A DNA stretch of 64,000 bases. Source: Hyphomicrobiales bacterium (GTDB taxonomy: Bacteria > Pseudomonadota > Alphaproteobacteria > Rhizobiales > NORP267). The position numbers and the translations under genes are program-made. The notes beneath the pieces were generated by a model. It made no database searches. It was given only the letters and a program-made list of their open reading frames with translations, and was not told the DNA's origin. The stretch lies in assembly GCA_021775875.1 (NCBI GenBank), contig JAJFHA010000028.1, positions 1 to 64,000 on the forward strand, in the 5' to 3' direction. The stretch's first letter is position 1. Every line of letters begins with the position of its first letter. Shown one piece after another: positions 46,362-63,092 of this stretch.

Positions 46362-46408
46362 GGTCACGAAAACGATCTGTGGGCTTTGCGGCTTGCCAAA
46401 CCGGTTTT

Positions 46409-46429
46409 TTAATTAATATACCTAATTAA
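46409..46429. promoter_or_regulatory. AT-rich palindrome upstream of gentisate dioxygenase
   Basis: TTAATTA-ATATACC-TAATTAA (arms 46409-46415 and 46423-46429, 7-bp spacer) is a perfect inverted repeat 26 bp before the start codon. The form fits a MarR-type operator. The only MarR-like sequence nearby is the broken gene at 48398-48648, so the site may now be unoccupied or served by a regulator elsewhere. Confidence 0.5.
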
Positions 46430-46454
46430 ATTTCAAAAGCCGGAGGGAAGACCC

Positions 46455-47507
46455 GTGACAGAGGATACGAGCACCCAGGAAGTCAGGCAGGAATTTTATG
46501 GCCGTCTGTCACCCCATAGCATGACGCCGCTCTGGGAAGTGTTGAAAGATCTTTTGAAAAGCGAGCCTGAAGCCAAGGCTGTTCCCTACAGGTGGAAATA
46601 TTCTGATGTGCGACCGCTGCTGCTTGAATCAGGCGGACTGGTGACGGCTGAGGAAGCTGAGCGCCGGGTGCTGGTTCTGGAAAACCCGTCTTATCCGGGT
46701 CAGACCCGCACAACCGCCTCGCTGTATGCTGGTATCCAGTTGATCCTGCCGGGCGAAGTGGCTCCAGCCCATCGTCATACCCCGTCGGCGTTGCGGTTTC
46801 TGCTTGAAGGCGAACAGGGTTTTACGGCGGTTGGCGGCGAGCGGACCATCATGAAGCCCGGTGATTTTATCATTACCCCGTCTTGGGCGTGGCATGACCA
46901 TGGCAACGAAAGCGACGGCCCGGTTGTGTGGATGGACGGGCTCGATATCCCAATGCTTGGATTTTATGAAGCGGTATTTATGGAAGGCCATAACGATCTG
47001 CAACAAAGTGTTGGCCGCCCCACAGGGGATGCGATTGCACGCTTTGGTCAGGGCATGTTGCCGATCTCGGGTGATGAAGCGCATCGGTACGGACAGAATT
47101 CGCCGATCTTCAATTATCCCTATGAACGCACCCGCGAAGCTTTGGTGGTATCGGCCCAGGGCGAAGACCCCGACCCGCATCTTGCCACCACGTTGCGATA
47201 CGCCAATCCGGTTGATGGCGGCTGGGCGATGCCGACCATGTCCACCTGGATGACCCATGTCAAAGCCGGGTGGGATACAACACCGATCCGCTCGACCGAT
47301 TCTATGGTGATGGCGGTTGCCGAAGGTGAGGCCAGCATCACTATTGGAGACACAACATATGATGTCGGGCCGCGGGATGTGGTCGCGATACCCGGTTGGC
47401 AATGGCGCAAAATCCGCGCAAAAAGTGATTGCTTCCTGTTCTTCTTCTCGGACCGGGTCGTGCACGAAAAGCTTGGATTTTTCCGCGAAGAACGCCAGGC
47501 TATCTGA
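46455..47507 (+). CDS. Gentisate 1,2-dioxygenase
   Basis: 350-residue bicupin Fe(II) dioxygenase that opens the ring of gentisate (2,5-dihydroxybenzoate) to maleylpyruvate. The N-terminal cupin has the iron-binding APAHRHTPSALRFLLEGE and SWAWHDHGNESDGPVVWMDGLDIP. The C-terminal cupin is degenerate (YDVGPRDVVAIPGWQWRKIRA). Length and motifs fit the GtdA/SdgD family. GTG start with CGGAGGG upstream. An FAH-family hydrolase follows after 18 bp, as expected for the gentisate pathway. Confidence 0.92.
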   Translation: MTEDTSTQEVRQEFYGRLSPHSMTPLWEVLKDLLKSEPEAKAVPYRWKYSDVRPLLLESGGLVTAEEAERRVLVLENPSYPGQTRTTASLYAGIQLILPGEVAPAHRHTPSALRFLLEGEQGFTAVGGERTIMKPGDFIITPSWAWHDHGNESDGPVVWMDGLDIPMLGFYEAVFMEGHNDLQQSVGRPTGDAIARFGQGMLPISGDEAHRYGQNSPIFNYPYERTREALVVSAQGEDPDPHLATTLRYANPVDGGWAMPTMSTWMTHVKAGWDTTPIRSTDSMVMAVAEGEASITIGDTTYDVGPRDVVAIPGWQWRKIRAKSDCFLFFFSDRVVHEKLGFFREERQAI

Positions 47508-47525
47508 CAACCGGAGCTATAATTT

Positions 47526-48377
47526 ATGAGAATTTGTCGTTTTGATGATAATCGGCTTGGCCTGGTTGAGGGGGATGAGGTCGTCGATGTTTCATCTGCG
47601 CTTGATCAGCTTCCGGCTGTGCGCTGGCCGTACCCGCCGGGGGATTTGCTGATCCGCCATCTGGAAGAATTGTGGCCACATCTGGAAGCGGCGGCGAAGA
47701 CGGGCGAACGTCTCAAAATTTCGGACGTGACGTTGCGGAGTCCGGTTGCGAATCCTGGCAAAATCCTTGCCGCGCCGGTCAATTACGCCAAGCATATTGA
47801 AGAGGCTCGCGCCGACCCCGGGATCAATTTTGGGTCCGACGTCAAGGCGATTGATCATTATGGCATCTTTCTAAAAGCGACCAGCGCGCTGGTGGGGGCT
47901 GGCGAAGGTGTGGTGGCCGGGTCCGCTGACCGGCGCACCGATCATGAGATCGAATTGGCTTTGGTGATAGGTAAGGGTGGGCGTAACATTTCAGAGGCCG
48001 AGGCGTTTGATCATATTGCCGGATATGCGATTGCGCTCGATATGACCATTCGCGGCACCGAAGATCGCTCCTACCGCAAATCTCTCGATACCTTTGCTGT
48101 GTTAGGGCCTTGGATGGTCACGGCTGACGAGTTTGGTGACCCGGCGCAAGTTGATTTCGAATTGAGGATCGATGGCGAAATACGGCAGAAGTCCAATACC
48201 CGGCATTTGATTTTTGATGTCCCGAAATTGATTGCCTATTCGTCGCAAGCCTTCACGCTGGAGCCCGGTGATATTATCATGACAGGGACACCGGAAGGCG
48301 TTGCGCCGGTCAAACCGGGCGACGTGATGGATTGTTCGATTGACGGGATCGGCACCATGCAGGTGGGTGTTCGCTAG
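47526..48377 (+). CDS. Fumarylacetoacetate hydrolase family protein, probable fumarylpyruvate/maleylpyruvate hydrolase
   Basis: 283-residue FAH-fold hydrolase: GKILAAPVNYAKHIEEA, DHEIELALVIGKGGRNISEAEAFDHIAGYAIALDMTIRG (metal-binding Glu residues) and DIIMTGTPEGVAPVKPGD. Downstream of gentisate dioxygenase it should hydrolyse fumarylpyruvate (after isomerisation) or maleylpyruvate directly, yielding pyruvate plus fumarate or maleate. No maleylpyruvate isomerase gene is visible beside it, so direct hydrolysis or an unlinked isomerase is required. Confidence 0.87.
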   Translation: MRICRFDDNRLGLVEGDEVVDVSSALDQLPAVRWPYPPGDLLIRHLEELWPHLEAAAKTGERLKISDVTLRSPVANPGKILAAPVNYAKHIEEARADPGINFGSDVKAIDHYGIFLKATSALVGAGEGVVAGSADRRTDHEIELALVIGKGGRNISEAEAFDHIAGYAIALDMTIRGTEDRSYRKSLDTFAVLGPWMVTADEFGDPAQVDFELRIDGEIRQKSNTRHLIFDVPKLIAYSSQAFTLEPGDIIMTGTPEGVAPVKPGDVMDCSIDGIGTMQVGVR

Positions 48378-48397: not shown

Positions 48398-48648
48398 CCC
48401 TCTTCTCGTGAGCTGCAAACAACAAGCAAGATGCTCGATAAAATTGCCAGATACAGGCTGTGGCGCTAAAACTAACGAAAGCAGGCACCGAGGCGGTTGA
48501 AATTGTATATGCCTGTAGCAAAAGCCATGAAGATGCGCTGCTTGCTCAACTCAGTGAAAATGAGCGCCGCAACTTTATGGATTTGCTTGGCAAAGCTTTG
48601 AATAGCGCCAGTGCCGCTCTTGAAGACAACAATTCAGGAATCAAGTAA
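48398..48648 (+). pseudogene. Broken MarR-family regulator gene
   Basis: Two fragments in different frames. PSSRELQTTSKMLDKIA (48398-48448) reads like the recognition-helix region of a MarR winged helix and runs into a stop at 48467. After a frame change, ALKLTKAGTEAVEIVYACSKSHEDALLAQLSENERRNFMDLLGKAL (48463-48612) is the C-terminal helix pair of the same family. The ORF track lists only the second part, as a 62-residue ORF. The wing and the N-terminus are missing. It lies just after the gentisate operon, where its regulator would be expected. Its end overlaps the 3' end of kynU on the other strand. Confidence 0.6.
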
Positions 48649-49882
48649 CTGCCTTGCGGGCGTGAAATTCCGGTTTGTCCCAAGCTCCGGTCGCCATGGC
48701 ATCGCGTAACGTGGCGATACAATCCCAAACATCGGTGAAGCGCATATAGAGCGGCGTTAATCCGAACCGCAGAATTCCGGGTTCGCGATAATCGCCGATA
48801 AACCCTTGCCCAATCAGATATTGCATGATGGCGTGGCCGTGTTCGTGAACCAGTGATACCTGGCTGCCACGAACTTCATGGTCGCTGGGGGTCACAATCG
48901 TGAAACCCTGATCGGCAAGCTCTTGGTTGACCAGTTCAATGAACAGATCAGATAAGGCCAGAGATTTTTCCCGAACGGATTTAATACTTACACCTTCAAA
49001 CGTTTTGAGGCCTTCGATCAATCCCACAAGGGAGAGGATCGGTGGGGTGCCCACAAGGGCCTTGGCGATCGATTGATGCGGGTCGTAATCGGTTTCAAAC
49101 GCGAACGGGCGGGCATGGCTGAACCAGCCCGTCAAAGCGGGCTCAAACGCGGCTTGGCAATTTGAGCGAATATAAGTGAAGGCTGGCGCGCCGGGGCCGC
49201 CATTCAGATATTTGTAGCCGCAGCCAATGGCATATTCGACGCCGTCTTTTTCCAGATCGAGCGGTACCGCACCGGCTGAATGACAAAAATCCCAGATCAG
49301 GGGAATATCCAACGCCCGGCATTGGGCGGTGATCTTATTGAGCGGGTACATGGCGCCGGTGCGATAATTTACATGGGTGAGGACAACAAGCGCGGTATCT
49401 TCATCGATAGCGCTCGCCACGTCTTCCATTTCGACCCGAACCAATTCGTGGTGGTTGCCTAGCAGCCGGATCAGGCCTTCCAGGATATAGCCGTCGGTTG
49501 GAAAATTGGTGGTTTCGGTGATGATTTTTTTGCGGCCTTCAGATGCGCCCAAAATCCCGGCTGCGAGTTTGAACAGATTGACCGAGGTTGAATCGCCAAA
49601 CACCACTTCGCCGGGTTTGGCACCAATCAGCGGTGCCAACATATCTCCCGCATCGGCAGAGAGGTTGATCCACCCGGCATCGTTCCAGCTTGAGATCAGT
49701 CCTTCGCCCCAGGCACTTGTGACAGCTTTGCTGATTGCCTCGGGCGCTGATTTGGGAAGCGGGCCAAGGGAATTGCCATCAAGATAGGCAATGCCTTCAG
49801 GTAATGTGAAGCGTTCGCGGCAATGGCGTAGCCGATCTTTGCAATCGCGCTTTGCGCATTCGTTGCGATCAATCATTGGCAA
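48641..49882 (-). CDS. kynU: Kynureninase
   Basis: 413-residue PLP enzyme cleaving kynurenine to anthranilate and alanine in tryptophan breakdown. YLDGNSLGPLPKSAPEAISKAVTSAWGEGLISSW at the N-terminus, LIWDFCHSAGAVPLDLEKDGVEYAIGCGYKYLNGGPGAPAFTYI (PLP-Lys in GYKYLNGGPG) and YREPGILRFGLTPLYMRFTDVW are typical. No tryptophan dioxygenase or formamidase gene is adjacent. The protein overlaps the MarR relic at its 3' end by 8 bp. Confidence 0.94.
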   Translation of the reverse strand: MPMIDRNECAKRDCKDRLRHCRERFTLPEGIAYLDGNSLGPLPKSAPEAISKAVTSAWGEGLISSWNDAGWINLSADAGDMLAPLIGAKPGEVVFGDSTSVNLFKLAAGILGASEGRKKIITETTNFPTDGYILEGLIRLLGNHHELVRVEMEDVASAIDEDTALVVLTHVNYRTGAMYPLNKITAQCRALDIPLIWDFCHSAGAVPLDLEKDGVEYAIGCGYKYLNGGPGAPAFTYIRSNCQAAFEPALTGWFSHARPFAFETDYDPHQSIAKALVGTPPILSLVGLIEGLKTFEGVSIKSVREKSLALSDLFIELVNQELADQGFTIVTPSDHEVRGSQVSLVHEHGHAIMQYLIGQGFIGDYREPGILRFGLTPLYMRFTDVWDCIATLRDAMATGAWDKPEFHARKAVT

Positions 49883-50143: not shown

Positions 50144-50911
50144 ATGCTTGAACTGGACAACCTGACGAAGTCCTTTGGGGGACTTCAGGCGGTTGACAAT
50201 TGCAGCCTCAAAATTGAGGCGGGCAAAATCACCGGATTGATCGGCCCGAATGGTGCCGGAAAAACCACCATCTTCAACATGATTGCCGGCGCGATGAAGC
50301 CGACGTCGGGGCGGATTTTGTTTGAGGGCGAAGATATTGCGGGTCTGCCGACCCATGAAATGTTTCATCGCGGCATTGTGCGGACGTTTCAAATTCCTCA
50401 CGAGTTTGGAAAGCTGACGGTGCTTGAGAATTTGATGGTGGTTCCCGCGGATCAAACCGGTGAAAACCTGATTTTGGGTTTGTTCACACCCGGTGCCGTC
50501 AAAAAGCGTGAGGAAGAGGTGTTGGCGTTGGCTGAGGATACGCTTGAGTTTCTCACCCTGACCCATCTCAAGGATGAGTTGGCGGAAAACCTGTCTGGCG
50601 GTCAGAAGAAGCTTCTCGAACTTGGCCGGACCATGATGACAGATGCCAAACTGGTGCTGCTCGACGAACCGGGAGCTGGCGTCAATCCAACCCTTTTGAA
50701 GCAGCTTGGCAACATGATCCGGCGTTTGAAGGAAGAACGGGGCTACACTTTCTGTATTGTCGAACACGACATGGACATGATTGCGAGCCTTTGCGATCCG
50801 GTCATTGTCTTGAACGAGGGCAGTGTGCTGACCCAGGGCAAGATGGCTGATGTGCGCAAGGACGAGCGCGTGCTGGATGCCTATCTTGGCGGTGGGGAGG
50901 AAGCCGCATAA
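50144..50911 (+). CDS. livG: Branched-chain amino-acid-type ABC transporter, ATP-binding protein LivG
   Basis: 255-residue ABC ATPase with Walker A GPNGAGKTTIFN, signature LSGGQKKLLELGR, Walker B LVLLDEPGAGVNP and the LivG-type IVRTFQIPHEFGKLTVLENLMV. Powers uptake through LivH/LivM. The start is preceded by GAGGGGGGAAA. Stop and livF start overlap (TAATG). The liv family imports branched-chain amino acids but also amides, urea and aromatic acids, and here the neighbours are aromatic-degradation genes. Confidence 0.93.
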   Translation: MLELDNLTKSFGGLQAVDNCSLKIEAGKITGLIGPNGAGKTTIFNMIAGAMKPTSGRILFEGEDIAGLPTHEMFHRGIVRTFQIPHEFGKLTVLENLMVVPADQTGENLILGLFTPGAVKKREEEVLALAEDTLEFLTLTHLKDELAENLSGGQKKLLELGRTMMTDAKLVLLDEPGAGVNPTLLKQLGNMIRRLKEERGYTFCIVEHDMDMIASLCDPVIVLNEGSVLTQGKMADVRKDERVLDAYLGGGEEAA

Positions 50912-51672
50912 TGGCTATCCTCGAACTGGAAAATATCCATGGTGGCTATGGGCAAACGGAAATCCTTCACGATATTTCGATGAGGGTCGAACCGGGTGAA
51001 ATTGTCGTCATAATCGGACCCAACGGTGCCGGTAAATCTACCGCAATGAAATCTGTATTCGGCCTTCTGAACCTGACTTCCGGGAGGATTTTGCTGGATG
51101 ATGTGGATATCACCAACACGCCCCCCGAAAAGGTGGTGCGACAAGGGGTCTGTTACGTACCGCAAACGGGTAATATTTTTCCAAATCTCAGCGTTCATGA
51201 AAATCTGGAAATGGGCGCTTATGTGCGCCAGGACGATTTTAGCGGTCGGCTTGACGAAATTTATGAGCTTTTCCCGCCGCTGGTTGAAAAGCGTAATTTG
51301 CCCGCTGGAACACTTTCGGGCGGACAACGCCAGATGGTGGCGATGGGCAAAGCTTTGATGCTGGATCCGAAAATTTTGCTGTTGGATGAACCATCCGCCG
51401 GTCTTTCGCCGAAATATCGAGGCGAAATTTTCAAAGTGGTACGCGATATCAATGAAGCTGGAACACCAATCCTGATGGTGGAGCAAAATGCCAAACAGGC
51501 GCTCGGCATTGCTGACCGTGCCTATATTCTGGTCGACGGCAAGAACCGGCTGGACGATACCGGCAAGAACCTGCTCGCCAACAAGGAAGTGGCGGAAATG
51601 TTCCTTGGCGGGGGCAAGACGGAAGTTAAAAAACCGGCGGTGCGCAAGGCCCGGGGGACGCCCAAGACATGA
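50911..51672 (+). CDS. livF: Branched-chain amino-acid-type ABC transporter, ATP-binding protein LivF
   Basis: 253-residue ABC ATPase of the LivF type: Walker A GPNGAGKSTAMKSVFGLL, VCYVPQTGNIFPNLSVHENLEMG, signature LSGGQRQMVAMGKALM and Walker B ILLLDEPSAGLSP. The C-terminal tail (GGGKTEVKKPAVRKARGTPKT) is basic. It overlaps livG at its start and livH by 4 bp at its end (ATGA), so the set is translationally coupled. Confidence 0.93.
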   Translation: MAILELENIHGGYGQTEILHDISMRVEPGEIVVIIGPNGAGKSTAMKSVFGLLNLTSGRILLDDVDITNTPPEKVVRQGVCYVPQTGNIFPNLSVHENLEMGAYVRQDDFSGRLDEIYELFPPLVEKRNLPAGTLSGGQRQMVAMGKALMLDPKILLLDEPSAGLSPKYRGEIFKVVRDINEAGTPILMVEQNAKQALGIADRAYILVDGKNRLDDTGKNLLANKEVAEMFLGGGKTEVKKPAVRKARGTPKT

Positions 51673-52559
51673 TCGATTTTATCAATTTCCATTTGATCCC
51701 CGGTTTGGTTCTGGGCAGCATTTATGCCCTCGGCGCTATCGGGGTAACTTTGACATTCGGGATTTTGCGGTTTGCCAATTTTGCCCATGGTGAGATCATG
51801 ACGCTCGGGGCGTATCTGACCCTGACAATGATGTGGCTGACCGGGTGGCACCCGTTGATCCTGTTGCCGGTGACGATGGTGATATTGTCGCTGATTGTGA
51901 TCGGCATGGATCAGGCTTTCTTTAAGCCATTCCGTAATAGTCCGGCTGTTACTGTGGTGATCGCCTCGTTTGGGCTGATGCTGATGATTAGGTCCGTCAC
52001 CCAGTTTAGCTGGGGGGCTCAATTGCAGGCCTTTGTGCCTGGAATTCAGCGGCCAAATGTATTTTTCGATGCATTGAGAATATCACCGAAGCATATTCTG
52101 ATCGTCATCAGCGCGATGGTTCTGATGCTTGTTGTCCATTGGGTGCTGGCTCATACGCGAATCGGCAAGGCAATGCGGGCCATGTCAGATTCTCCCGAAC
52201 TGGCTCGCCTTACCGGCATTAATACAGAACTTGTTATCAAGGCTACCTGGATTTTGGGTGCTTGCATGGCGGCGGCGGCTGGCGTGTTTCTGGCTTATGA
52301 CAGCCATGTCAGCACGATGATGGGCTTCCAGATTTTGCTGCCTACTTTTGCCGCTGCGATTGTGGGCGGGATTGGGCGACCCTACGGTGCCATGGCAGGG
52401 GGCCTGTTGATCGGCGTCACGGAAGAATTATCGAGTTACGCATGGCTTGGCGACGGGCCGCTGCTTGAACCCGGATACAAGGCCGGGGTTTCCTTTGCGA
52501 TCATGATCGGCGTGCTGATTTGGCGGCCAAGCGGGTTGTTCCGCGGGAGGGTATTTTAG
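51669..52559 (+). CDS. livH: Branched-chain amino-acid-type ABC transporter permease LivH
   Basis: 296-residue inner-membrane permease with about eight hydrophobic segments. FHLIPGLVLGSIYALGAIGVTLTFGILRFANFAHGEIMTLGAYL is the family N-terminus. The EAA-like loop region is LAHTRIGKAMRAMSDSPELARLTGIN, and the conserved AAAIVGGIGRPYGAMAGGLLIGVTEEL lies near the C-terminus. Forms the channel with LivM. Confidence 0.92.
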   Translation: MIDFINFHLIPGLVLGSIYALGAIGVTLTFGILRFANFAHGEIMTLGAYLTLTMMWLTGWHPLILLPVTMVILSLIVIGMDQAFFKPFRNSPAVTVVIASFGLMLMIRSVTQFSWGAQLQAFVPGIQRPNVFFDALRISPKHILIVISAMVLMLVVHWVLAHTRIGKAMRAMSDSPELARLTGINTELVIKATWILGACMAAAAGVFLAYDSHVSTMMGFQILLPTFAAAIVGGIGRPYGAMAGGLLIGVTEELSSYAWLGDGPLLEPGYKAGVSFAIMIGVLIWRPSGLFRGRVF

Positions 52560-52561
52560 AG

Positions 52562-53509
52562 ATGGATCAACTATACGGATATTCTCTCTACGGCCTGTCG
52601 CTGCTGACCTTTGGCGGGATTTACGCCATGCTGGCCTTGGGTCTCAATATTCAATTGGGATTTACCGGGCTTTTTAACGCGGGCATTGCCGGGTTTTTTG
52701 TCGTTGGTGCCTATGTTTCGGCGATCCTTTCAACAGCGCCTTCGGAGCGCCATATTGGTGGATTTGACTGGCCTATTCCTTTTTCTCTTGTGGCCGCGAT
52801 GGTGGTCAGTGCGCTCATTGGTTGGGCGGTGGCTCGAATATGTATGCGCCTCAGAGCCGATTATCTGGCCATTGCCACGCTAGGGATCGCTGAAATTTTG
52901 CGGCTCATTTTCAAGAACGAAACTGATCTGACAAATGGTGCGCGTGGGGTTTCCTATATTCCGAAGCCTTATGAAAGTCTGGCGCAACCCTGGAACCACG
53001 TGATGATGACGGTGGTGGTGCTGGCGATTGTGGCTGTGCTTTATTTCATGCTTGAGCGGGCGCGAAAATCACCCTGGGGCCGGGTCATGGCGGCGATTCG
53101 CGAAAACGAAGATTCAGCGCGTGCAGCCGGTAAAAATGTTGACCGCCTGCGCGTTCAGGCCTTTGTTGTCGGCTCGGCCATGATGGGTCTGGGTGGTGGC
53201 ATGATGGCGCATCATCTGAAATTTATTGACCCGAACGCTGCCGACCCGACCACCGCGACGTTCCTGGTCTTTGTGATGCTGATTGTTGGCGGTAGTGGTA
53301 ACAACAAGGGTGCCATTGTTGGCGCCTTGTTGATGTGGACGATCTGGTCAGCGACTGAAATTTTCACCAGTATGCTGCCGGGTGATCTGGCGATCCGGTC
53401 CGCCTATATCCGGGTGTTCCTGATCGGATTGATGTTGCAGATCATGTTGCAAAAATTTCCGCAGGGTTTATTCCCGGAAAAACGACTGGAAACAGGGAGT
53501 TCCGGTTAA
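52562..53509 (+). CDS. livM: Branched-chain amino-acid-type ABC transporter permease LivM
   Basis: 315-residue permease starting MDQLYGYSLYGLSLLTFGGIYAMLALGLNIQLGFTGLFNAGIAGFFVVGAY. RVMAAIRENEDSARAAGKNVDRLRVQAFVVGSAMMGLGGGMMAH is the cytoplasmic coupling region, and a conserved GGSGNNKGAIVGALLMW follows. The start at 52562 is chosen over 52520 because GGAGGG precedes it and the extension overlaps livH in another frame. Only 2 bp separate it from livH. Confidence 0.92.
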   Translation: MDQLYGYSLYGLSLLTFGGIYAMLALGLNIQLGFTGLFNAGIAGFFVVGAYVSAILSTAPSERHIGGFDWPIPFSLVAAMVVSALIGWAVARICMRLRADYLAIATLGIAEILRLIFKNETDLTNGARGVSYIPKPYESLAQPWNHVMMTVVVLAIVAVLYFMLERARKSPWGRVMAAIRENEDSARAAGKNVDRLRVQAFVVGSAMMGLGGGMMAHHLKFIDPNAADPTTATFLVFVMLIVGGSGNNKGAIVGALLMWTIWSATEIFTSMLPGDLAIRSAYIRVFLIGLMLQIMLQKFPQGLFPEKRLETGSSG

Positions 53510-53677
53510 AATATTCTGACATTTCCTGATGGCCGTTAAGGCTGAAAAGCAAGAATCCGGAACCGGAATTGCATTTTACCGGGAATTGTCGGAACATAGG
53601 GCAGGAGCCTTATCTCTGTGGGCCATTTTGGTCCGTGTAATATCCAAGAAGTATATAATTTAATTGGGAGACGAGTG

Positions 53678-54889
53678 ATGATGAAGACTTTTAAACAGTT
53701 GGCCCTTGCCAGCACGATGCTTGCATTTGTAGGCACCGCGGCAATTGCTGACGAAATCAAGGTTGGCTCGGTTGCTGGTGTAACCGGCCCGATTGCTGAA
53801 CTGGTTGTGCCTATTGTTGCCGGTCGGCAAATGGCTGCTGACCAGATCAACGCTGCTGGCGGCCTGTTGAATGGCGATACCATGACAATGGTACTTGCTG
53901 ATTCGCAGTGTGATCCGAAAGCTGGCGTGGATGCTGGCACCAAGGTTGTGAATGTTGAACAGGTTGTAGCCATCGTTGGCGCAAGCTGCTCGGGCGCTAC
54001 TAACGGTATGGTTCAGTCAGTGACCATTCCTGCTGGTGTTGTTGCATTGTCGGATTCTGCGACCGCACCGTCCATCACCGATCTTGACGACAATGATCTG
54101 GTTTTCCGGGTTGCCGCGTCTGATGCTTATCAGGGCGCTGCTATCGCCCAGCTCGCATGGGACCAGGGCTATCGTACGCTTGCAATGACCTATGCAAATG
54201 ACGATTACAATGCTGGCCTGGCCGGTGTATTTGAAGCCGCATTCAAGGGTCTCGGTGGTACGATTACTTCGAACCAGATGCATGAACCCAACAAGGCATC
54301 CTACCGCTCAGAGCTTTCAACGCTCTCCGGTAATGGGGCTGAAGGTCTTGCCATCTTCGCTTATTATGGTGGTTCAGGTATTGCCATCATGCGGAACGCT
54401 CTGGAAGCTGGTCTTTTTGAAAAATTCCTGGCTGCCGACGGCATGTTCGACCAGTCTGTAATTGATCAGATCGGTGCTGATGTTCTTCGTGATAATATCA
54501 TGATCACGCAGGCCGCTTCCGATTACGATGATCCGTCCTATGTGGCATTTGCTGGTGCTTTTGAAGCAACCGGCCACAGCCCGCAAGCACCTTATGCGGC
54601 ACACGGTTATGATGCGGCATTCCTGATTGCGCTCGCAATTGAGAAAGCCGGCAGCACCGACCGCGCAGCAATTAGTGCAGCGCTTCGTGAAGTCGCTGGA
54701 CCTCCTGGTGTCGTGATCCGTCCTGGTGAATGGGCCAAGGCCAAGGCAGCCATCGCTGCTGGTCAAGACGTCAATTACGAAGGCGCAGTTGGCAATAACG
54801 ACTTTGACGGCAATGGCGATGTAACCGGTTTGTTCTCGGTCAACGTTGTTGGCGCTGATGGCAAATGGACAGGTAATCTGATCCGCTAG
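53678..54889 (+). CDS. livK: Liv-type ABC transporter periplasmic substrate-binding protein
   Basis: 403 residues, signal peptide MMKTFKQLALASTMLAFVGTAAIAD, then a type-I periplasmic-binding fold (KVGSVAGVTGPIAELVVPIVAGRQMAADQINAAGGLLNG, IVGASCSGATNGMVQSVTIPAGVVALSDSATAPSI). GGGAG lies 7 bp before the start. A gap of 168 bp from livM suggests its own promoter, allowing the higher expression typical of binding proteins. The ligand cannot be read from sequence. Confidence 0.92.
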   Translation: MMKTFKQLALASTMLAFVGTAAIADEIKVGSVAGVTGPIAELVVPIVAGRQMAADQINAAGGLLNGDTMTMVLADSQCDPKAGVDAGTKVVNVEQVVAIVGASCSGATNGMVQSVTIPAGVVALSDSATAPSITDLDDNDLVFRVAASDAYQGAAIAQLAWDQGYRTLAMTYANDDYNAGLAGVFEAAFKGLGGTITSNQMHEPNKASYRSELSTLSGNGAEGLAIFAYYGGSGIAIMRNALEAGLFEKFLAADGMFDQSVIDQIGADVLRDNIMITQAASDYDDPSYVAFAGAFEATGHSPQAPYAAHGYDAAFLIALAIEKAGSTDRAAISAALREVAGPPGVVIRPGEWAKAKAAIAAGQDVNYEGAVGNNDFDGNGDVTGLFSVNVVGADGKWTGNLIR

Positions 54890-55890: not shown

Positions 55891-57729
55891 TCAGCCAATA
55901 ATGATCGCACCGTCCTTACCTGCATAAAGCGCCTCGATTTCGTCGCTGCGATTTTCAATCACGGCGCGCTGGTTGATATAACCCTTGTCGGTTATTTCGT
56001 TGTCATCGATACCCGGAAGTCGGGTCATTATCTTGACCCGGTCGATCCGCATGCTGGATGCCGGATGGTCATTATTATAGGCGATGATTTTCTCGTTGAT
56101 CATGGTGCGGATGACGTCATTTGCCGCAAGCTCTTCCAGCGAAATGTCGGCGGCGAGGTTAGCGGCCTCCGCGCAAGCGGCCGGGTTCAGAAACAATAGA
56201 AGGCCGATATTGTTGCGGTCGTGGCCGGTGACAACAGCGTCTTGAACCAATGGCGCTATAGCCGCGATGGCGGTGATTCGCAGGGCACCTACATGAATCC
56301 AGACGCCTGTGAGCAGCTTGAAATTCTCGGCAGTCCTGCCATCGAATACCAGGCCTTTTATTGGGTCATCTGGGTCTTCAAACTTGCCGGCATCGCCGAT
56401 CATGTAATAGCCCTCATCGTCAAAGGCTTCGGCGGTCTGTTCGACGTTTTTGAAATAACCGGGCATGATGTTGGGGCCTTTGATCCGCATTTCCATTTTG
56501 CCGGAATTTGGCACCATTTTTATGGAGTTTCCCGGCGCCGGAAGGCCGATAACGCCGGCTTTGTTGATTGGAAAATAAACCGACGTGATAAGGGGTGAGG
56601 TTTCGGTGGAGCCCCAGGACGAAGTCATGAAGATATTGTCGCGACCGGCAAGCGCCGCGACTGCTTCGAGGCGTTCCCACAGGCTTTGAGGCAAAGCGGC
56701 TGCAGCATAAAAAATCATTTGAAGATCGCGGAAAAACATCTCCCTTAGACCTTCGTCTTTTTCAAGAAACGGGAGCAGCATTTCAATCCCGCGCGGGGCG
56801 TTGAAATGGATGGTTGAGGGGTTTTCGCGCAGAGACGCGACGGTTTCTTCAATCAGTCCCGGCACCGGTTTACCGTGATCGATATTCAGGGTGCCGCCGT
56901 TACGAAGGACCAGATTGAAATTATGATTGCCACCAAAGGTGTGGCTCCAGGGGAGCCATTCAACGAGCACAGGTGGCGTCGTTTTCAGGAAAGGCCAGAT
57001 TTGCGATAGCGCTTGTTGATTGGAACACAACATGCGCTGGGTGTTCAGGACCCCTTTTGGCAAGCCAGTTGATCCGGATGTGAACAGGATTTTGGCGATT
57101 GTATCAGGGGTTATTTTGGCAAAGGCTTCAGCCACGGCAGGCGTTGGCCGGGTTGCTATAATCTGCTCAAAGGTGACTGCATTTTCCAGCGCGTCGGCAT
57201 TTTTCTTAACCGCCAACTTTACGCCTTTTGTATCCAGCGCCCCAATAGCCGTCTGGAAAGCCGCACCATCGGCGGCGTAAATCATCCGCGGGTGGGTCAG
57301 CTCGAAGACATATTTCAGTTTGGCGTGATCTTGAGACAGTAGCGAATAAGCGGGGGAGATCGGGACCGCCGGCACGCCGATATGCATGGCGCCAAGGGTC
57401 AGGAAGGCATGCTCCAGGCTGTTTTCCGACAGGATCATTAGCGGCGTGTTGGCATCATAATTCTGATCAAGCAGGAATTGTGCGATTGCTTCGACAATCT
57501 TCAGGCTGGCGGCATAGCTGTATTTTTGCCATGTGCCTGCTTCATCACGTTCCGACAAAAATACGCTGTCCGGTGCGGTCTCGGCCCAGTGAATCAGATG
57601 ATGGCCAAGCGCGGCAGGATAGTCCTGCAATTTGATACCGGATTCAAGAATAATGGTGCCGTCTTCCCGATGCTCAACCTCCAGCGATGGTTTGGCGAAT
57701 TCCAGCCCGTTATAAAATATATGATCCAT
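55891..57729 (-). CDS. Feruloyl-CoA synthase-like AMP-dependent acyl-CoA ligase
   Basis: 612-residue adenylate-forming ligase. P-loop ILFTSGSTGLPKGVLNTQRM, the segment SSWGSTETSPLITSVYFP (A5), and DGRTAENFKLLTGVWIHVGALRI, which is characteristic of feruloyl-CoA synthases. It would activate a hydroxycinnamate or other aryl acid to its CoA ester with ATP. No hydratase/lyase (ech) or vanillin dehydrogenase is beside it, so the true substrate is open. It is divergent from the opine-dehydrogenase-like gene. Confidence 0.85.
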   Translation of the reverse strand: MDHIFYNGLEFAKPSLEVEHREDGTIILESGIKLQDYPAALGHHLIHWAETAPDSVFLSERDEAGTWQKYSYAASLKIVEAIAQFLLDQNYDANTPLMILSENSLEHAFLTLGAMHIGVPAVPISPAYSLLSQDHAKLKYVFELTHPRMIYAADGAAFQTAIGALDTKGVKLAVKKNADALENAVTFEQIIATRPTPAVAEAFAKITPDTIAKILFTSGSTGLPKGVLNTQRMLCSNQQALSQIWPFLKTTPPVLVEWLPWSHTFGGNHNFNLVLRNGGTLNIDHGKPVPGLIEETVASLRENPSTIHFNAPRGIEMLLPFLEKDEGLREMFFRDLQMIFYAAAALPQSLWERLEAVAALAGRDNIFMTSSWGSTETSPLITSVYFPINKAGVIGLPAPGNSIKMVPNSGKMEMRIKGPNIMPGYFKNVEQTAEAFDDEGYYMIGDAGKFEDPDDPIKGLVFDGRTAENFKLLTGVWIHVGALRITAIAAIAPLVQDAVVTGHDRNNIGLLLFLNPAACAEAANLAADISLEELAANDVIRTMINEKIIAYNNDHPASSMRIDRVKIMTRLPGIDDNEITDKGYINQRAVIENRSDEIEALYAGKDGAIIIG

Positions 57730-57849
57730 ACTTCATTGCTCCGCTTGCCAGTCATACTGTCTGGCGGCAAGATAGCCGCCGAATAGCGGGCATGCCCGCA
57801 CAACAAAAGTATAGTTCCTCTGAGGGGAAAAATGCGAATCGGAGTGGGC

Positions 57850-58935
57850 ATGAAAATAGCGGTACTTGGCGGTGGACACGGATGTTATGCCGCCGCTGTT
57901 GATCTGGCCGAACAAGGGCATGACGTTGCCTTTTGGCGGCGCGACAAAGCGTCTCTTGCCGGGATTATGAAAACCGGCGAAATCCATCTGAAAGATGCTA
58001 GCGGTACGCGGGCCGTCAAGCTTGGTCTCGTTACCGATGATCTGGCGGCGGCTGTGTCCGGCGCAGCACTTGTTGTGATCCCGCTTCCGGCGACGGCGCA
58101 GGCGGATCTCGCTAAAACCCTCGCGCCGCATCTGGAAGACGGTCAGGTGGTTTTTATTCCGCCCGGCACATTCGGGTCGCTTATATTTTCGCGTGCCATG
58201 AAGGAAGCAGGTAACAACGCGGATGTGAGTTTTGCTGAAACCGGCACTTTGCCCTATCTGGCGCGCAAGCATGGCGAAGACAATGTCACAATTTCTGTGC
58301 GTGCGACCCGGCTGCCGACAGGGGTTTATCCTGCCAGCCGGACGGATCAGGCCTTTGCAATATTGGAACAAGCCTATCCGGCGGTGGAGCGACTGGATGA
58401 TTGCCTGAGCGGAGCGCTGATGAATGCCGGGCCGATTATCCACCCACCACTGATCATGATGAATGCCGGGCCGCTGCAACATTTTGACGTTTGGGATATC
58501 CACAATGAAGGAACGCAACCATCTATCCGCAGCGTAACAGATGCGCTGGACGCAGAACGGATGGCGCTACGCGAAGCGCTTGGTTATGGCGCACCGCATT
58601 TTCCGCTAGTGGATCATTATGATGATGCGCGGCCGGAATGGATGTACGGCAACGCCTCGCACGAACGTCTCACGGATAGTGGCGACTGGCGGGAAAAAAT
58701 AGACCTCCATACCCATCGCTATCTTCGCGAAGATATCGCGCTCGGGCTGGTTTTTTATGTAACGCTCGGGCGCTGGGCCAATGTAGATATGCCGGTCGCG
58801 TCCGGTCTGGTTGCATTGGCGTCGGCGGTCACCGGTGAGGACCTGATCAACGGCCCCCGGTCATGGAAGAGCCTTGGTCTTGACAGCATGTCGCGTGATG
58901 ACGTGGCTCAATTGCTTCGCGACGGAGAGATTTGA
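57850..58935 (+). CDS. NAD/NADP octopine/nopaline dehydrogenase family protein
   Basis: 361-residue two-domain oxidoreductase. The N-terminal Rossmann domain MKIAVLGGGHGCYAAAVDLAEQGHDVAFWRR is followed by a C-terminal domain with SGALMNAGPIIHPPLIMMNAGPLQ, the signature of octopine dehydrogenases, including the catalytic His. The family condenses amino acids such as arginine with 2-oxo acids reductively, or runs in reverse. A second possible start at 57832 has GAGGGG 4 bp upstream; 57850 has GGAG 5 bp upstream and begins directly at the Rossmann strand. The next gene overlaps its stop (TGATG). Confidence 0.86.
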   Translation: MKIAVLGGGHGCYAAAVDLAEQGHDVAFWRRDKASLAGIMKTGEIHLKDASGTRAVKLGLVTDDLAAAVSGAALVVIPLPATAQADLAKTLAPHLEDGQVVFIPPGTFGSLIFSRAMKEAGNNADVSFAETGTLPYLARKHGEDNVTISVRATRLPTGVYPASRTDQAFAILEQAYPAVERLDDCLSGALMNAGPIIHPPLIMMNAGPLQHFDVWDIHNEGTQPSIRSVTDALDAERMALREALGYGAPHFPLVDHYDDARPEWMYGNASHERLTDSGDWREKIDLHTHRYLREDIALGLVFYVTLGRWANVDMPVASGLVALASAVTGEDLINGPRSWKSLGLDSMSRDDVAQLLRDGEI

Positions 58936-59909
58936 TGAGCGCAATTGTTGTTGTCGGCGCGGGCCGGATGGGGCGTGGCATCGCGCAGGTTTTCGCCTAT
59001 GCCGGGCAGGACATTACGATCCTAGATATCAAGGATCGCCCACTTGATGATTTGCCGGATCTGTTTGACGCCGGGCGGAAGGAGATATCTGAAAACTTAC
59101 GCTTCATAGCGGAAGCGGATGTGTTTGATGCAGACCAGATCCCTGACATTCTGGCACGTGTGCAATTTGCTGGTCGGGAAGATGCTGCCAATGTACTGGG
59201 ACAGGCGGAACTGGTTTTTGAAGGGGTGCCCGAGCGGCAGGATGCCAAGAAAAAGGCCTTTGCCTTTATCTGCGCCCATCTGCCCGATGACGCTATCATC
59301 GCATCAACCACATCCACCATGCTGAGCGATATGCTGGCCAGATTTGTGACCCGGCCCGAGCGGTTTCTCAATGCCCATTGGCTGAACCCGGCCTATCTGG
59401 TGCCGCTGGTAGAGGTCAGCCTGGCGGCGGAGACCAGCGAAGCTGTTGTTGAAAAAGTGATGGATTTGCTGGTCGCGATTGGCAAGGTTCCGGTTCGGTG
59501 TGAAGCGTCCCCAGGCTATATTGTGCCGCGTCTGCAAGCCTTGATAATGAACGAAGCTGCGCGAATTGTGGAAGAGGGCGTTGCCAGTGCCGAGGATGTA
59601 GACAGGGCGGTGCGCTATGGGCTTGGACTTCGCTTTGCCACCATGGGCCCGATAGAATTTATCGATTGGGGCGGGTTGGATATTCTCTATTATGCATCGC
59701 GCTATATGACCGAAGCGACCGGCTCTGATCGTTTCCAAGCCCCAGATAGCGTGGTCGAGAAAATGCAGGCTGGTGATATCGGGATGAGCAGCGGCAAGGG
59801 GTATTACGACTTCTCGAAAATCGATGTTGAAGCCTATAAGCGCGATATGCTGGCCCGGTTTGTAAACCAGGTGAAACATCTCGGCTTACTGAAACCCCCT
59901 ACCACTTAA
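58935..59909 (+). CDS. 3-hydroxyacyl-CoA dehydrogenase family protein (hydroxybutyryl-CoA / carnitine dehydrogenase type)
   Basis: 324-residue NAD-dependent dehydrogenase: IVVVGAGRMGRGIAQVFAYAGQDITILDIKDR (Rossmann) and a catalytic HWLNPAYLVPLVEVS where true 3-hydroxyacyl-CoA dehydrogenases have HFFNP. The C-terminal 3HCDH domain has SPGYIVPRLQALIMNEAARIVEEGVASAEDVDRAVRYGLGLRF. The single 3HCDH domain and HWxNP are also found in carnitine dehydrogenase and lambda-crystallin-like enzymes, so the substrate need not be a CoA ester. Coupled to the opine-dehydrogenase-like gene by a one-base overlap. Confidence 0.85.
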   Translation: MSAIVVVGAGRMGRGIAQVFAYAGQDITILDIKDRPLDDLPDLFDAGRKEISENLRFIAEADVFDADQIPDILARVQFAGREDAANVLGQAELVFEGVPERQDAKKKAFAFICAHLPDDAIIASTTSTMLSDMLARFVTRPERFLNAHWLNPAYLVPLVEVSLAAETSEAVVEKVMDLLVAIGKVPVRCEASPGYIVPRLQALIMNEAARIVEEGVASAEDVDRAVRYGLGLRFATMGPIEFIDWGGLDILYYASRYMTEATGSDRFQAPDSVVEKMQAGDIGMSSGKGYYDFSKIDVEAYKRDMLARFVNQVKHLGLLKPPTT

Positions 59910-59917
59910 AGTCTGAA

Positions 59918-60208
59918 CTAGACCCCGTCGATAATGATCGTCGAGCATTCTGCAGCGGCGTTGCGAATGGCTTTTACGGGTATATATTCTTCCGCCCCCA
60001 ACATCGCTTTGGCAGCAGCCATATCCTTGAATTCGAGGACCACGATCCGGGTTGGTTCCCAAAGTTCGTTTTCAACAATTTCCATGTCGCCGCCTCGGGC
60101 GCGGTATTGGCCGCCGAATTTTTCAACAATAGGGCGTGCTAACTTCTTGTAGCCCTCATAGGCTTCCGCATCATTTATTTTGGTGTCTACGATTACATAA
60201 GCTGCCAT
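59918..60208 (-). CDS. DUF1330 domain protein
   Basis: 96-residue protein of the DUF1330 family (MAAYVIVDTKINDAEAYEGYKKLARPIVEKFGGQYRARGGDMEIVE...WEPTRIVVLEFKDMAAAKAML). A dimeric ferredoxin-like alpha-beta barrel fold is expected. Function is unknown. It lies 22 bp downstream of hpaD and is the last gene of the minus-strand aromatic-catabolism operon. Confidence 0.88.
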   Translation of the reverse strand: MAAYVIVDTKINDAEAYEGYKKLARPIVEKFGGQYRARGGDMEIVENELWEPTRIVVLEFKDMAAAKAMLGAEEYIPVKAIRNAAAECSTIIIDGV

Positions 60209-60230: not shown

Positions 60231-61085
60231 TTAGCGTTTCAATGGTGCTGACAATTCTACATTGATCTGACCGGTTCCGGAACTGCCAAAATAGGGTGTC
60301 AGGATATCTGCTGTTCCCTGATATGCGTCCCAACCCAATGCGCCGAACAACATTGCGGTATCAATCATGGCGCATTCGCCGTGGCAGCGTTTGGCATATT
60401 CGGGCAGCATGGCAAGGAATTCGGTCCATTGCCCCGACTTCCAGAGATCAACCACGCGCAAATCGATCTGGCGGTTAAATTCTCCATTGATCAGGTTTAG
60501 CCCGGCTTCCGACAATTCGTTTGGCCAGAATTCGTGGGAAAGCGAGCCGCTTGCCAACACCGCGACCTTGCGGTTCGAATTGGTAATTGCGGTAGCGATG
60601 GCGTCCCCGACAGCGCGGCCCTCTTCGATGCTGGCAAACTGGTTGGCGGCAACGGGCAGGACCCGAGCAAATTTATCTTCGTTGATGAAGTGCATCGGGA
60701 GCAGGGTGCCGTATTCGCAAGCCAGATGCGACGTTTTGTGGGCAATCGCCCGGAACCCGGCGTCGCGCACGCTTTCAGCAAGTGCATCTCCCAGTTCCGG
60801 GTCGCCCTGATAATCATATTCCATGTCCATCAACATGTGGGGTAGTTCGTGGCTGGTAAAAATCCCGTTATGGCGCTCTTTGGCGTTGAAATGAAACCCC
60901 TGGTTGACGATCCAGTGCGTATCAAAAATAACAAAAGTTTCGACCCCGGCGGCCTTGGCCCTTTTGCCGAGTTCGCGATAACCGGTTACGGCGAAGTCGC
61001 GAATGCCGCGGAATTTTTCCATGGTTTCCGACATCCAGATGGACGGTACGTGGGTTATTTTGGCAGCCTGTACGATGCGTCCCAT
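60231..61085 (-). CDS. hpaD: 3,4-dihydroxyphenylacetate (homoprotocatechuate) 2,3-dioxygenase, LigB type
   Basis: 284-residue class III extradiol dioxygenase cleaving homoprotocatechuate to 5-carboxymethyl-2-hydroxymuconate semialdehyde. Metal-ligand segments include KITHVPSIWMSE, TFVIFDTHWIVNQGFHFNAKERHNGIFTSHELPHMLMDMEYDYQGDPEL and ASGSLSHEFWPNE; KTSHLACEYGTLLPMHFI is also typical of HpaD. The product is the substrate of HpaE, encoded 24 bp upstream in the same operon. Confidence 0.9.
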   Translation of the reverse strand: MGRIVQAAKITHVPSIWMSETMEKFRGIRDFAVTGYRELGKRAKAAGVETFVIFDTHWIVNQGFHFNAKERHNGIFTSHELPHMLMDMEYDYQGDPELGDALAESVRDAGFRAIAHKTSHLACEYGTLLPMHFINEDKFARVLPVAANQFASIEEGRAVGDAIATAITNSNRKVAVLASGSLSHEFWPNELSEAGLNLINGEFNRQIDLRVVDLWKSGQWTEFLAMLPEYAKRCHGECAMIDTAMLFGALGWDAYQGTADILTPYFGSSGTGQINVELSAPLKR

Positions 61086-61109
61086 ATCGTGTTTCCTGGT
61101 TTGATTAGC

Positions 61110-62645
61110 CTATGAGCCGATTTTTGGAATACGGTGGTTGCCCGTCGCCAAGGCGATATTTTTGGTTTCCATATAAAAATCAAAACTATAGTCGCCGCCA
61201 TCGCGACCAATGCCGGACTGTTTGGTGCCGCCAAAGGGGGTTGGCAGATGGCGTACATTTTCAGAATTGACCCAGACCATACCGGCTTCAATTTCAGCAC
61301 TCATGCGCAAGGCCCGGCCAACGTCTGATGTCCAGATATAAGCCGCAAGGCCGTAGGGTACGTCGTTGGCGATGCGGAGCGCATCATCTTCATCTTCAAA
61401 GGGGATAGCGGTCAGGACCGGTCCGAAAATTTCTTCCGATGCGATCCGCATTTTCGCGTTGGCGTTGGCAAACAAGGTGGCCTCCACATAATTGCCGGGG
61501 GAAGGTGGCGTCTCCGGTTGAACGCCACCGGCTGGAACTTCAGCGCCTTCTTTGCGTGCCAGATCAAAATAGGATGTTACTTTTTCCAGATGACGGGGAT
61601 GGATCAACGGTCCAAGCCAGGTGTCGGGGTCAAGCGGGTGACCGCAATGGATCGCTTTTGTGCGCACGGCGAGACGCTTTGAAAATTCTGGGTAAATCGA
61701 TTTTTCAACCAACACCCGGCTTGAAGAGGTGCAGCGCTCGCCGTTCAGGCTGAAAATCATAAAAGTTGCCGCATCGAGCGCCCGGTCCAAATCGGCATCG
61801 GCAAAAACGATGCAGGGGTTTTTGCCGCCAAGCTCGAAATGGACGCGTTTCAGGGTCGGCGCACCCTGCGCCATGATTGCAGACCCGGTGGCGGATTCGC
61901 CGACAAAAGCGATTGCCTTGATGGCTGGATGCCGGGTCAGGGCGACACCGACCTCTTCACCGATGCCGTGCACGAGATTGAGGACGCCCGGCGGCAGCCC
62001 GGCTTCATGGCAAAGCCTGGCCAGCAGGGTCGCCGTAACCGGACTCCATTCGGCTGGTTTGTGGACGATCGTACACCCAGCCGCTAGCGCCGGAGCAATC
62101 TTCCAGGTGGAGAGCATGAACGGTGTGTTCCACGGTGTGATGATCCCGACCGGGCCGATCGGCTGGCGGATGGTATAATTCACATGTGTGTCTGTTGGCA
62201 GCGACAGGCCGTTGACGGCGTCTGGCGCGCGGCCGGCAAAGAAGCGGAAATTGGCGGCGCTGCGGATCGCGGCCTTCTGCATGAACCGGATCGCCTGGCC
62301 GGTATCATAGCTTTCAAGCAGGGCAATTTCTTCTGCATGTTCGACAATCTTGTCGGCAATTGCGTGAAGAATTTCACGGCGTTCACTCCCCGGCGTGGCA
62401 CGCCACCCGGCGAAGGCATTTTTTGCGGCATTTGCAGCCCGGTCGATATCGGTATTGTCACCGCGTGAGACGTCGCAAAAGGCAATATTGTCAATCGGGG
62501 ACGCATTCTCGAATGTGGTGCCGGAGGCGCTAGCTACCATTTCGCCGTTGATCAGGTGTTGGAGGCCATTTTCCCGGACCGGTTCCAGATAGTCGGATAG
62601 CTTTTTCAAGTTTGCTTTCAACAGGGCAGAGGATTCCATGTTCAT
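61110..62645 (-). CDS. hpaE: 5-carboxymethyl-2-hydroxymuconate semialdehyde dehydrogenase
   Basis: 511-residue aldehyde dehydrogenase: PIGPVGIITPWNTPFMLSTWKIAPALAAG, catalytic Glu in HFELGGKNPCIVFADADLD and catalytic Cys in FSLNGERCTSSSRVLVE. The family alone is broad, but its place between hpaD and hpaF identifies it as HpaE, oxidising the ring-cleavage semialdehyde with NAD+. Its ATG overlaps the hpaF stop by 4 bp (ATGA). Confidence 0.9.
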   Translation of the reverse strand: MNMESSALLKANLKKLSDYLEPVRENGLQHLINGEMVASASGTTFENASPIDNIAFCDVSRGDNTDIDRAANAAKNAFAGWRATPGSERREILHAIADKIVEHAEEIALLESYDTGQAIRFMQKAAIRSAANFRFFAGRAPDAVNGLSLPTDTHVNYTIRQPIGPVGIITPWNTPFMLSTWKIAPALAAGCTIVHKPAEWSPVTATLLARLCHEAGLPPGVLNLVHGIGEEVGVALTRHPAIKAIAFVGESATGSAIMAQGAPTLKRVHFELGGKNPCIVFADADLDRALDAATFMIFSLNGERCTSSSRVLVEKSIYPEFSKRLAVRTKAIHCGHPLDPDTWLGPLIHPRHLEKVTSYFDLARKEGAEVPAGGVQPETPPSPGNYVEATLFANANAKMRIASEEIFGPVLTAIPFEDEDDALRIANDVPYGLAAYIWTSDVGRALRMSAEIEAGMVWVNSENVRHLPTPFGGTKQSGIGRDGGDYSFDFYMETKNIALATGNHRIPKIGS

Positions 62646-63046
62646 TCGATGGTTTCTCCGTTACGTGCTGCAATTATGTCGTGCAGATTGTTTTTCTTGA
62701 AACTGGTCTCTTTGTTGATTTCCCAAATGTTCAGGGACAGAGCCAACGGCAAGTCAGGGCTTACCTGGTCCAGAAAAAGGGAGACGGTGTCAAAGATTTT
62801 TGCCCCCGCTTTGTGGCGCGTCTCAACATCACGCCCTTCGCCGATCATCAATTTGATATTCAGAAAAATATTGTCCGGATGCTGGTCTGCAATCGCATAA
62901 ATATCGCGCCGTGCCCCCCTCGTGCGGGTCCCTGCTGGCGGGAATATGCCTGTTGAAATTGCGGCATTGTGAATTTCGCCAACAAGGGCCGCGATATCGA
63001 CCGCGTCTTCAAGATTGGCAGAATATTCAACAATGATATGGGGCAT
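62642..63046 (-). CDS. hpaF: 5-carboxymethyl-2-hydroxymuconate delta-isomerase
   Basis: 134-residue tautomerase-superfamily enzyme. The start at 63046 gives MPHIIVEYSANLEDAVDIAAL, exposing the catalytic Pro1 after Met removal; the track start at 63082 would bury it. GGAGAG lies 8 bp upstream. GARRDIYAIADQHPDNIFLNIKLMIGEGRDVETRHKAGAKIF is typical of CHMI. First gene of the minus-strand hpaF-hpaE-hpaD-DUF1330 operon. Confidence 0.9.
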   Translation of the reverse strand: MPHIIVEYSANLEDAVDIAALVGEIHNAAISTGIFPPAGTRTRGARRDIYAIADQHPDNIFLNIKLMIGEGRDVETRHKAGAKIFDTVSLFLDQVSPDLPLALSLNIWEINKETSFKKNNLHDIIAARNGETIE

Positions 63047-63070
63047 ACAGGCTCTCCGGCGTTTACAGAA

Positions 63071-63092
63071 ATTCATTACCATGTTAATGAAT
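63071..63092. promoter_or_regulatory. Inverted repeat in the hpaF/hpaG divergent promoter region
   Basis: ATTCATTA-CCATGT-TAATGAAT: perfect 8-bp arms (63071-63078, 63085-63092) with a 6-bp spacer, in the 105-bp gap between divergent hpaF and the hpaG-like gene. The form suits a MarR-family repressor of the HpaR type. No regulator gene is in the window, so this is inferred. Confidence 0.55.

Follow-up and report, generated by a model that had tools for sequence, protein, structure and literature searches.

The gene pair described here joins members of two families of two-domain oxidoreductases. The opine-dehydrogenase family includes N-(1-D-carboxyethyl)-L-norvaline dehydrogenase (CENDH, 1bg6) and octopine dehydrogenase. 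The 3-hydroxyacyl-CoA dehydrogenase (HAD) family includes the 3-hydroxybutyryl-CoA dehydrogenases (HBDHs), L-carnitine 3-dehydrogenase and L-gulonate 3-dehydrogenase (lambda-crystallin), and its known enzymes act, to our knowledge, on 3-hydroxy and not on 2-hydroxy acids. Bacterial breakdown of auxin, for which iac and iad loci have been described, shapes root growth. Regulators of auxin loci have been solved structurally (7l1i, 7kua and 7kym; PMC9613470; PMC11630574), and Pseudomonas sp. Root71, for which RNA-seq data are public, is an experimentally proven degrader of indole-3-acetic acid (IAA; PMC11630574).

We analysed a window of 64,000 nucleotides, the whole stretch of DNA under study, from contig JAJFHA010000028.1 of a Hyphomicrobiales bacterium (assembly GCA_021775875.1). 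An earlier note had picked out in it an opine-dehydrogenase-like gene overlapping a HAD-like gene, a combination for which it knew no joint pathway; in keeping with this, the literature that we searched held no paper on the pair. The note had further supposed that the pair feeds aromatic or CoA pathways through a two-step oxidation of an amine- or hydroxy-bearing substrate; that both enzymes act in turn on one molecule is conjectural. Co-localisation and genomic co-occurrence with iac and iad genes now tie the pair to aromatic-acid catabolism, and the association with auxin genes is a new finding that goes beyond that reading. We consider the chances evenly balanced that the pair is an accessory module of IAA and aryl-acid catabolism which oxidizes a free hydroxy- or amino-acid.

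Layout of the locus

The first gene (P0001, 361 amino acids) occupies positions 57850-58935 of the forward strand, with an in-frame ATG at 57832 as a possible upstream start, and was recognised from its sequence and its match to PF02317. The second (P0002, 324 amino acids; 58935-59909, forward strand) was placed in the PRK08269 clade of the HAD family by its match to NF006125 and by a phylogenetic tree. As the earlier note had seen, they overlap by one base, the shared A of a TGATG stop/start (58933-58937, forward strand), and a sequence resembling a ribosome-binding site, GGAGAG (58924-58929, forward strand), lies within the first gene, five bases 5′ of the second ATG. The overlap suggests that the two genes are translationally coupled, and short overlaps (−1 and −4) are the most frequent junctions in homologous loci.

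The flanking genes also turned out to be those that the note had named. Upstream, on the reverse strand, is a divergent acyl-CoA/feruloyl-CoA synthetase-like ligase of the PRK12582 type (55891-57729), whose score against NF009232, 755 bits, is just below the cut-off of 777 and which adjoins the pair in both congeners of the window organism as well (loci L128 and L129). A LivFGMHK-type ABC importer, assigned by family matches, lies further upstream (50144-54889, forward strand); the locus arrangement, this importer included, is syntenic in the same two congeners, and the importer may possibly take up the substrate of the pair. Downstream, beyond a small unnamed open reading frame (59918-60208, reverse strand), the reverse strand carries hpaD, for homoprotocatechuate meta-cleavage (60231-61085; TIGR02298, 386 bits, cut-off 316), hpaE (61110-62645; TIGR02299, 781 bits, cut-off 638) and the CHMI gene hpaF (62642-63082; PF02962, over the cut-off). 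These genes of aryl-acetate meta-cleavage (60231-63082) are context, outside the pair module. Elsewhere in the window, a kynureninase gene (48641-49882; TIGR01814, 305 bits, cut-off 246) lies about 8 kb from the pair, and MetE-like, gentisate-dioxygenase-like cupin and fumarylacetoacetate-hydrolase-like genes follow one another at 45261-48377; the surroundings of the pair in L028, L034 and L059 also include MetE-like homologues.

Conservation and distribution of the pair

The earlier note had called for an analysis of neighbourhood conservation. The two genes were adjacent on the same strand in 86 of 88 loci, 85 of them at normal spacing and one (L049) with a longer gap; the other two (L029 and L095) have no second gene, and L133 likewise holds the first gene without a HAD gene. 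These 88 loci were recruited through the first gene, so the count shows that the second follows the first. The reverse rests on 61 relatives, eight of which had PRK08269 matches over the cut-off, with the first gene directly upstream in all eight, as against none of 12 weaker HAD loci. Chance neighbours are ruled out by these adjacency counts.

With the first gene as query, named genomes yielded 80 loci in Alpha-, Beta- and Gammaproteobacteria, Actinomycetota (Amycolatopsis and Saccharopolyspora) and Bacillota (Paenibacillus and Ammoniphilus), and plasmid records added the pair in a haloarchaeon, Natrinema. Genes in the loci were called with a home-made ORF picker, some of whose GC-rich antisense ORFs are spurious, and the key families were confirmed by HMM or BLAST. 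The pair is probably a mobile catabolic module that has spread horizontally, because its presence is patchy (14 of 385 Alphaproteobacteria; 20 of 200 Pseudomonas) and because the transporters (MFS family in 42 loci, TRAP, NMT1-type ABC and Liv ABC) and regulators (AraC, GntR and MarR) attached to it vary. The TRAP binding proteins near the pair have 4mnc, presumably a benzoylformate complex, as their nearest solved structure; for the binding proteins of the Liv and NMT1 types, comparison pointed to no ligand. Viral contigs yielded a single match, L108 (IMGVR_UViG_3300027917_003078), which ends in a truncated opine-dehydrogenase-family gene and, despite its viral label, is probably host DNA.

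Two further kinds of gene recur around the pair. In marine alphaproteobacteria, a PLP enzyme resembling CuyA or D-cysteine desulfhydrase (340 bits, cut-off 450) lies directly upstream, often with a methyltransferase alongside (L031:8928-9962, L037, L042, L045 and L130). HyuA/HyuB genes of the hydantoinase/caprolactamase type recur, from archaea to alphaproteobacteria, near the pair or near the IotA gene of the window genome (L027:5055-8976, L124, L127, L132, L134 and L165).

Features of the two enzymes

Both family assignments of the earlier note were borne out. The first protein scored 98 bits against Octopine_DH (PF02317; Pfam cut-off 30), and both its Rossmann and its alpha-helical Octopine_DH domain are present. 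Its nearest solved structure is CENDH, by sequence (2e-32) and by fold (TM 0.86; model pLDDT 92). Residues H198, R290 and D295 align with H212, R324 and D329 of octopine dehydrogenase, and across 75 homologues R290 and D295 are invariant and H198 nearly so. A further motif, W29-R30-R31, with which strand 2 ends, is nearly invariant as well. NADP-dependent ketopantoate reductase is an analogue for a cofactor motif of this type, and the resemblance suggests that the first enzyme binds NADP, contrary to the earlier note, which had taken both for NAD enzymes.

The second protein scored 151 bits against 3HCDH_N and 82 bits against 3HCDH (Pfam cut-offs about 22), and 453 bits against PRK08269 (NF006125, '3-hydroxybutyryl-CoA dehydrogenase'), for which the curated cut-off is 427. 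Its model has a pLDDT of 95 and its nearest fold is 1zej (rmsd 2.9). In the tree, it falls in a clade of its own (100/99) on a long stem, outside the HBDHs but on their side; carnitine dehydrogenase and lambda-crystallin make up a separate clade (100/99) apart from it. The earlier note had raised an affinity to that second group, which the tree does not support. The HWLNP motif that it had noticed is at residues 148-152 (59376-59390, forward strand) and, by sequence and clade alignment, contains the catalytic His148. The alignment has HWLNP in 15 of 15 members of the clade, HFMNP in all eight HBDHs and HPFNP in all eight carnitine dehydrogenases. The catalytic dyad His148-Glu160 is kept throughout the clade (15 of 15), and Ser127 and Asn151 are kept in the second protein. 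The substrate-contacting Asn (Asn208 of the human enzyme; Asn in eight of eight HBDHs) is replaced by Pro198 in 14 of the 15, and the clade has a three-residue insert at 234-236 that it shares with carnitine dehydrogenase and lambda-crystallin and that HBDHs lack. Because this Asn has given way to Pro, HWLNP is invariant and an insert of the free-acid type is present, we infer that the protein has lost its specificity for CoA thioesters, and a CoA substrate is doubtful. An invariant Asp31 is typical of NAD. The window genome holds another HBDH, matching PRK07530 over the cut-off (555 bits). Tree and residues together speak against a plain HBDH: where the earlier note had seen a second gene placed among the HBDHs without conserved linkage as speaking against it, we find a clade of its own and conserved linkage.

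Association with auxin genes

Homologues of iacA, C, D, E, F, G, H and I neighbour the pair in Acinetobacter, Pseudomonas, Gluconacetobacter and Burkholderia, partial iac sets are found near it in Amycolatopsis, and the iad markers IotA/IorB lie near it in Massilia, Ramlibacter and G022. Of 105 pair loci, 19 held two or more iac markers, or the full set of two iad markers, within about 10 kb, and seven more had one marker; 86 of the 105 are thus below the two-marker threshold. The 20 loci around other HAD genes that served as controls held no iac or iad marker (Fisher p 0.04, from a small control). Some copies of the pair have a MarR gene next to them, with matches to the structurally solved auxin-locus regulators from A. 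baumannii (7l1i, 8e-78), P. putida 1290 (IacR, 7kua, 6e-64) and B. japonicum (7kym, 3e-26). In Pseudomonas and Stutzerimonas, an IacR-like MarR gene directly follows the pair (L040:12195-12707; L043:12163-12699, the source of the 7kua match at 6e-64; and L061:12378-12887). The iac genes of these three genomes are located elsewhere, away from the pair and the IacR-like gene, and auxin may control the pair directly there.

FMN-/FAD-linked 2-hydroxyacid dehydrogenases, PanE-like reductases and class II aldolases also recur near the pair (L085:8697-9878, L050:12095-13468, L041:8158-9967, L078:4765-5523 and L103:5285-6202). The iac clusters of Marinomonas likewise hold FMN 2-hydroxyacid dehydrogenase, PanE-like and class II aldolase genes that are unexplained (PMC11373566). 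This independent recurrence strengthens the idea of a hydroxy acid being involved.

The association extends to whole genomes. In a sample of 200 Pseudomonas genomes drawn regardless of the pair, except for three chosen for carrying it, iacC accompanied the first gene in 19 of its 20 genomes and was present in 21 of the 180 without it (Fisher p 1.3e-14; this and the other co-occurrence statistics treat as independent related genomes that are not phylogenetically independent). With the three selected genomes left out, the figures were 16 of 17 and 21 of 180 (p 1.5e-12). The first gene lies 7-16 kb from iacC in seven of the 19 genomes that have both. The relation is lopsided: 21 of 40 Pseudomonas genomes with iac have no pair, and only one of 20 with the pair has no iac. 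Pseudomonas has two types of IacC, one about 84-100% and the other about 60% identical to the copy in L100, and the pair associates with both (9 of 25 and 11 of 16 genomes, respectively). Among 25 pair genomes that were selected, not drawn, 17 have iacC (at least 59% identity) and iacA, even where these are not adjacent to the pair, and five others have an iad-type IotA; in a Paenibacillus pair genome, neither iacC nor IotA was found. The pair is carried by the genome of Pseudomonas sp. Root71 (L094; record NZ_LMHY01000003.1, at about 29-31.5 kb). In Alphaproteobacteria, an IotA-family gene, taken as the iad marker, was present in 13 of 14 pair genomes and 45 of 371 without the pair (p 7e-11), or, counted by genus, in 9 of 10 and 28 of 267. 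Because many alphaproteobacterial IotA homologues sit outside iad loci, this test is weaker than the one in Pseudomonas, and what it indicates is a tie to aryl-keto-acid metabolism, not to auxin in particular. The main text of a proteomic study of the IAA response names neither protein of the pair (PMC8383072).

In the window organism, the link to auxin is indirect, through an IotA homologue (56% identity) on another contig, which adjoins a benzoate-CoA-ligase-family gene and genes of the same TRAP and TetR families as are found around the pair in other loci. A search of the window genome for the dioxygenase type of L102 gave no match. The module may serve another aryl acid here; as a speculation, the neighbouring hpa genes would suggest aryl-acetates, derived for example from phenyl-lactate-type compounds.

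Proposed function and alternatives

In the mechanism that we propose, the first enzyme would transfer hydride at a carbon that bears N or O and lies next to a carboxylate, and the second, a divergent HAD-family oxidoreductase, would use a free 3-hydroxy acid rather than its CoA thioester. The module would usually travel with a transporter and a regulator, and its substrate or product would join the iac or iad pathway; in the window organism it would perhaps connect to aryl-acetate (homoprotocatechuate) and IotA-type routes. We infer the free-acid substrate, the direction of the reaction and, since iac is found without the pair, a peripheral role. The fuller version of this proposal, which we hold with somewhat less than even confidence, is that the two enzymes form a CoA-independent dehydrogenase module that opens an additional indolic hydroxy- or amino-acid to auxin degraders, or handles a side-chain product of the iac pathway, and that the PRK08269 'HBDH' is misnamed. 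If this is true, the automatic name '3-hydroxybutyryl-CoA dehydrogenase', which stands in many genomes, is probably wrong. Genomes with iac often have no pair, few pairs occur where iac is absent, and the pair often comes with an importer and regulator of its own; on these grounds, its likeliest role is to supply the pathway with a related compound or to finish one of its products. For the substrate, our leading guess is a compound of the aryl-lactate or aryl-alanine type, indole-3-lactate for example, that enters upstream, and our second guess is a four-carbon hydroxy-acid side chain from indole ring degradation. Upstream candidates may include indolic and other aryl-lactates and N-substituted aryl-alanines.

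An upstream role is a special case of the accessory module, in which the pair would turn an imported aryl hydroxy- or amino-acid into an aryl-pyruvate or aryl-acetate, and this product would then pass into iac, iad or hpa. Taken alone, we regard it as rather unlikely. The substrates could be D- and L-indole-3-lactate or, in the window organism, 3,4-dihydroxyphenyllactate, with the two enzymes serving two enantiomers or successive oxidations. In agreement with such a role, P. putida 1290 does not grow on indole-3-lactate (PMC7225977), and its described iac cluster, iacABCDEFGHI with iacR, is without the pair (PMC9613470). The lopsided relation to iac in Pseudomonas, the frequent presence of a dedicated MFS, TRAP or ABC importer with AraC, GntR or MarR regulators, and the co-occurrence with IotA, an aryl-pyruvate oxidoreductase family, all favour it. 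The similarity of the TRAP binding proteins to 4mnc, presumably a benzoylformate complex, points the same way. However, an aryl-lactate leaves the second enzyme unexplained, because known HAD-fold enzymes use 3-hydroxy acids.

It is unlikely, in our estimate, that the pair handles, as a downstream step, a C4 hydroxy-acid or amide side chain (malate- or malamate-like) released as indole-acetate ring cleavage leads to catechol or anthranilate, as one interchangeable solution alongside FMN 2-hydroxyacid dehydrogenases and PanE/aldolase pairs. The fragment would be a 3-hydroxy free acid and would fit the second enzyme, alternative hydroxy-acid enzymes occur in the same loci, in Pseudomonas the pair hardly ever turns up in a genome that has no iac, and the published pathway has a gap in its intermediates between dioxindole-acetate and catechol (PMC9613470; PMC7225977). 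Yet the pair is missing from half of the iac genomes, ordinary malate enzymes would do, the first enzyme would have no evident secondary amine, and dedicated importers would go unexplained unless IAA itself is imported.

It is also conceivable, though we think it improbable, that the pair carries out a redox-neutral inversion or transfer, in which NAD+ would serve the second enzyme to oxidize a hydroxy acid, and NADPH would serve the first to reduce or reductively aminate the keto product. The predicted cofactors suit this scheme (W29-R30-R31 as in NADP-binding relatives in the first enzyme, Asp31 in the second), but dedicated uptake and the catabolic setting favour net oxidation, and the first enzyme sometimes occurs alone. 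That the second gene is an ordinary HBDH and the pairing incidental is very improbable: the PRK08269 name, a score over its cut-off and a position on the HBDH side of the tree favour it, but the protein stands outside the HBDHs in a clade of its own (100/99, with a long stem), has lost the substrate Asn, has an invariant HWLNP and is almost strictly linked to the first gene, and the PRK07530 HBDH is already present in the window genome.

Comparison with known systems

With its accessory role in aryl-acid catabolism as our preferred reading, the pair can be set against the systems closest to it. The first protein shares the fold, the Octopine_DH domain and the aligned His-Arg-Asp with CENDH (1bg6) and octopine dehydrogenase (3c7a/3iqd), but is only about 26% identical, has WRR in place of the acidic NAD motif and is encoded nearly always next to a HAD-family gene, outside any opine context. 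The second protein has the two-domain fold, His148-Glu160, Ser127 and Asn151 in common with the HBDHs (PRK07530, PRK05808 and relatives), and differs from them in its separate clade, HWLNP, Pro198, the 234-236 insert and the coupled opine-dehydrogenase-family gene. With L-carnitine 3-dehydrogenase and L-gulonate 3-dehydrogenase (lambda-crystallin) it shares two features of free-acid enzymes, Y-x-x-P after the catalytic motif and a G-L-R-(F/W)-A loop, whereas the tree separates them with strong support and no thioesterase or BKACE partners were noticed beside the pair. Compared with the iac and iad loci, the pair lies outside the described iacA-I genes, was not found in the iad descriptions consulted and is missing from about half of the iac-positive Pseudomonas, but it is often their neighbour or genomic companion, and an auxin-type MarR gene sits beside some copies. 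Its near confinement, in Pseudomonas, to genomes with iac makes it a concrete candidate for a missing piece of auxin breakdown.
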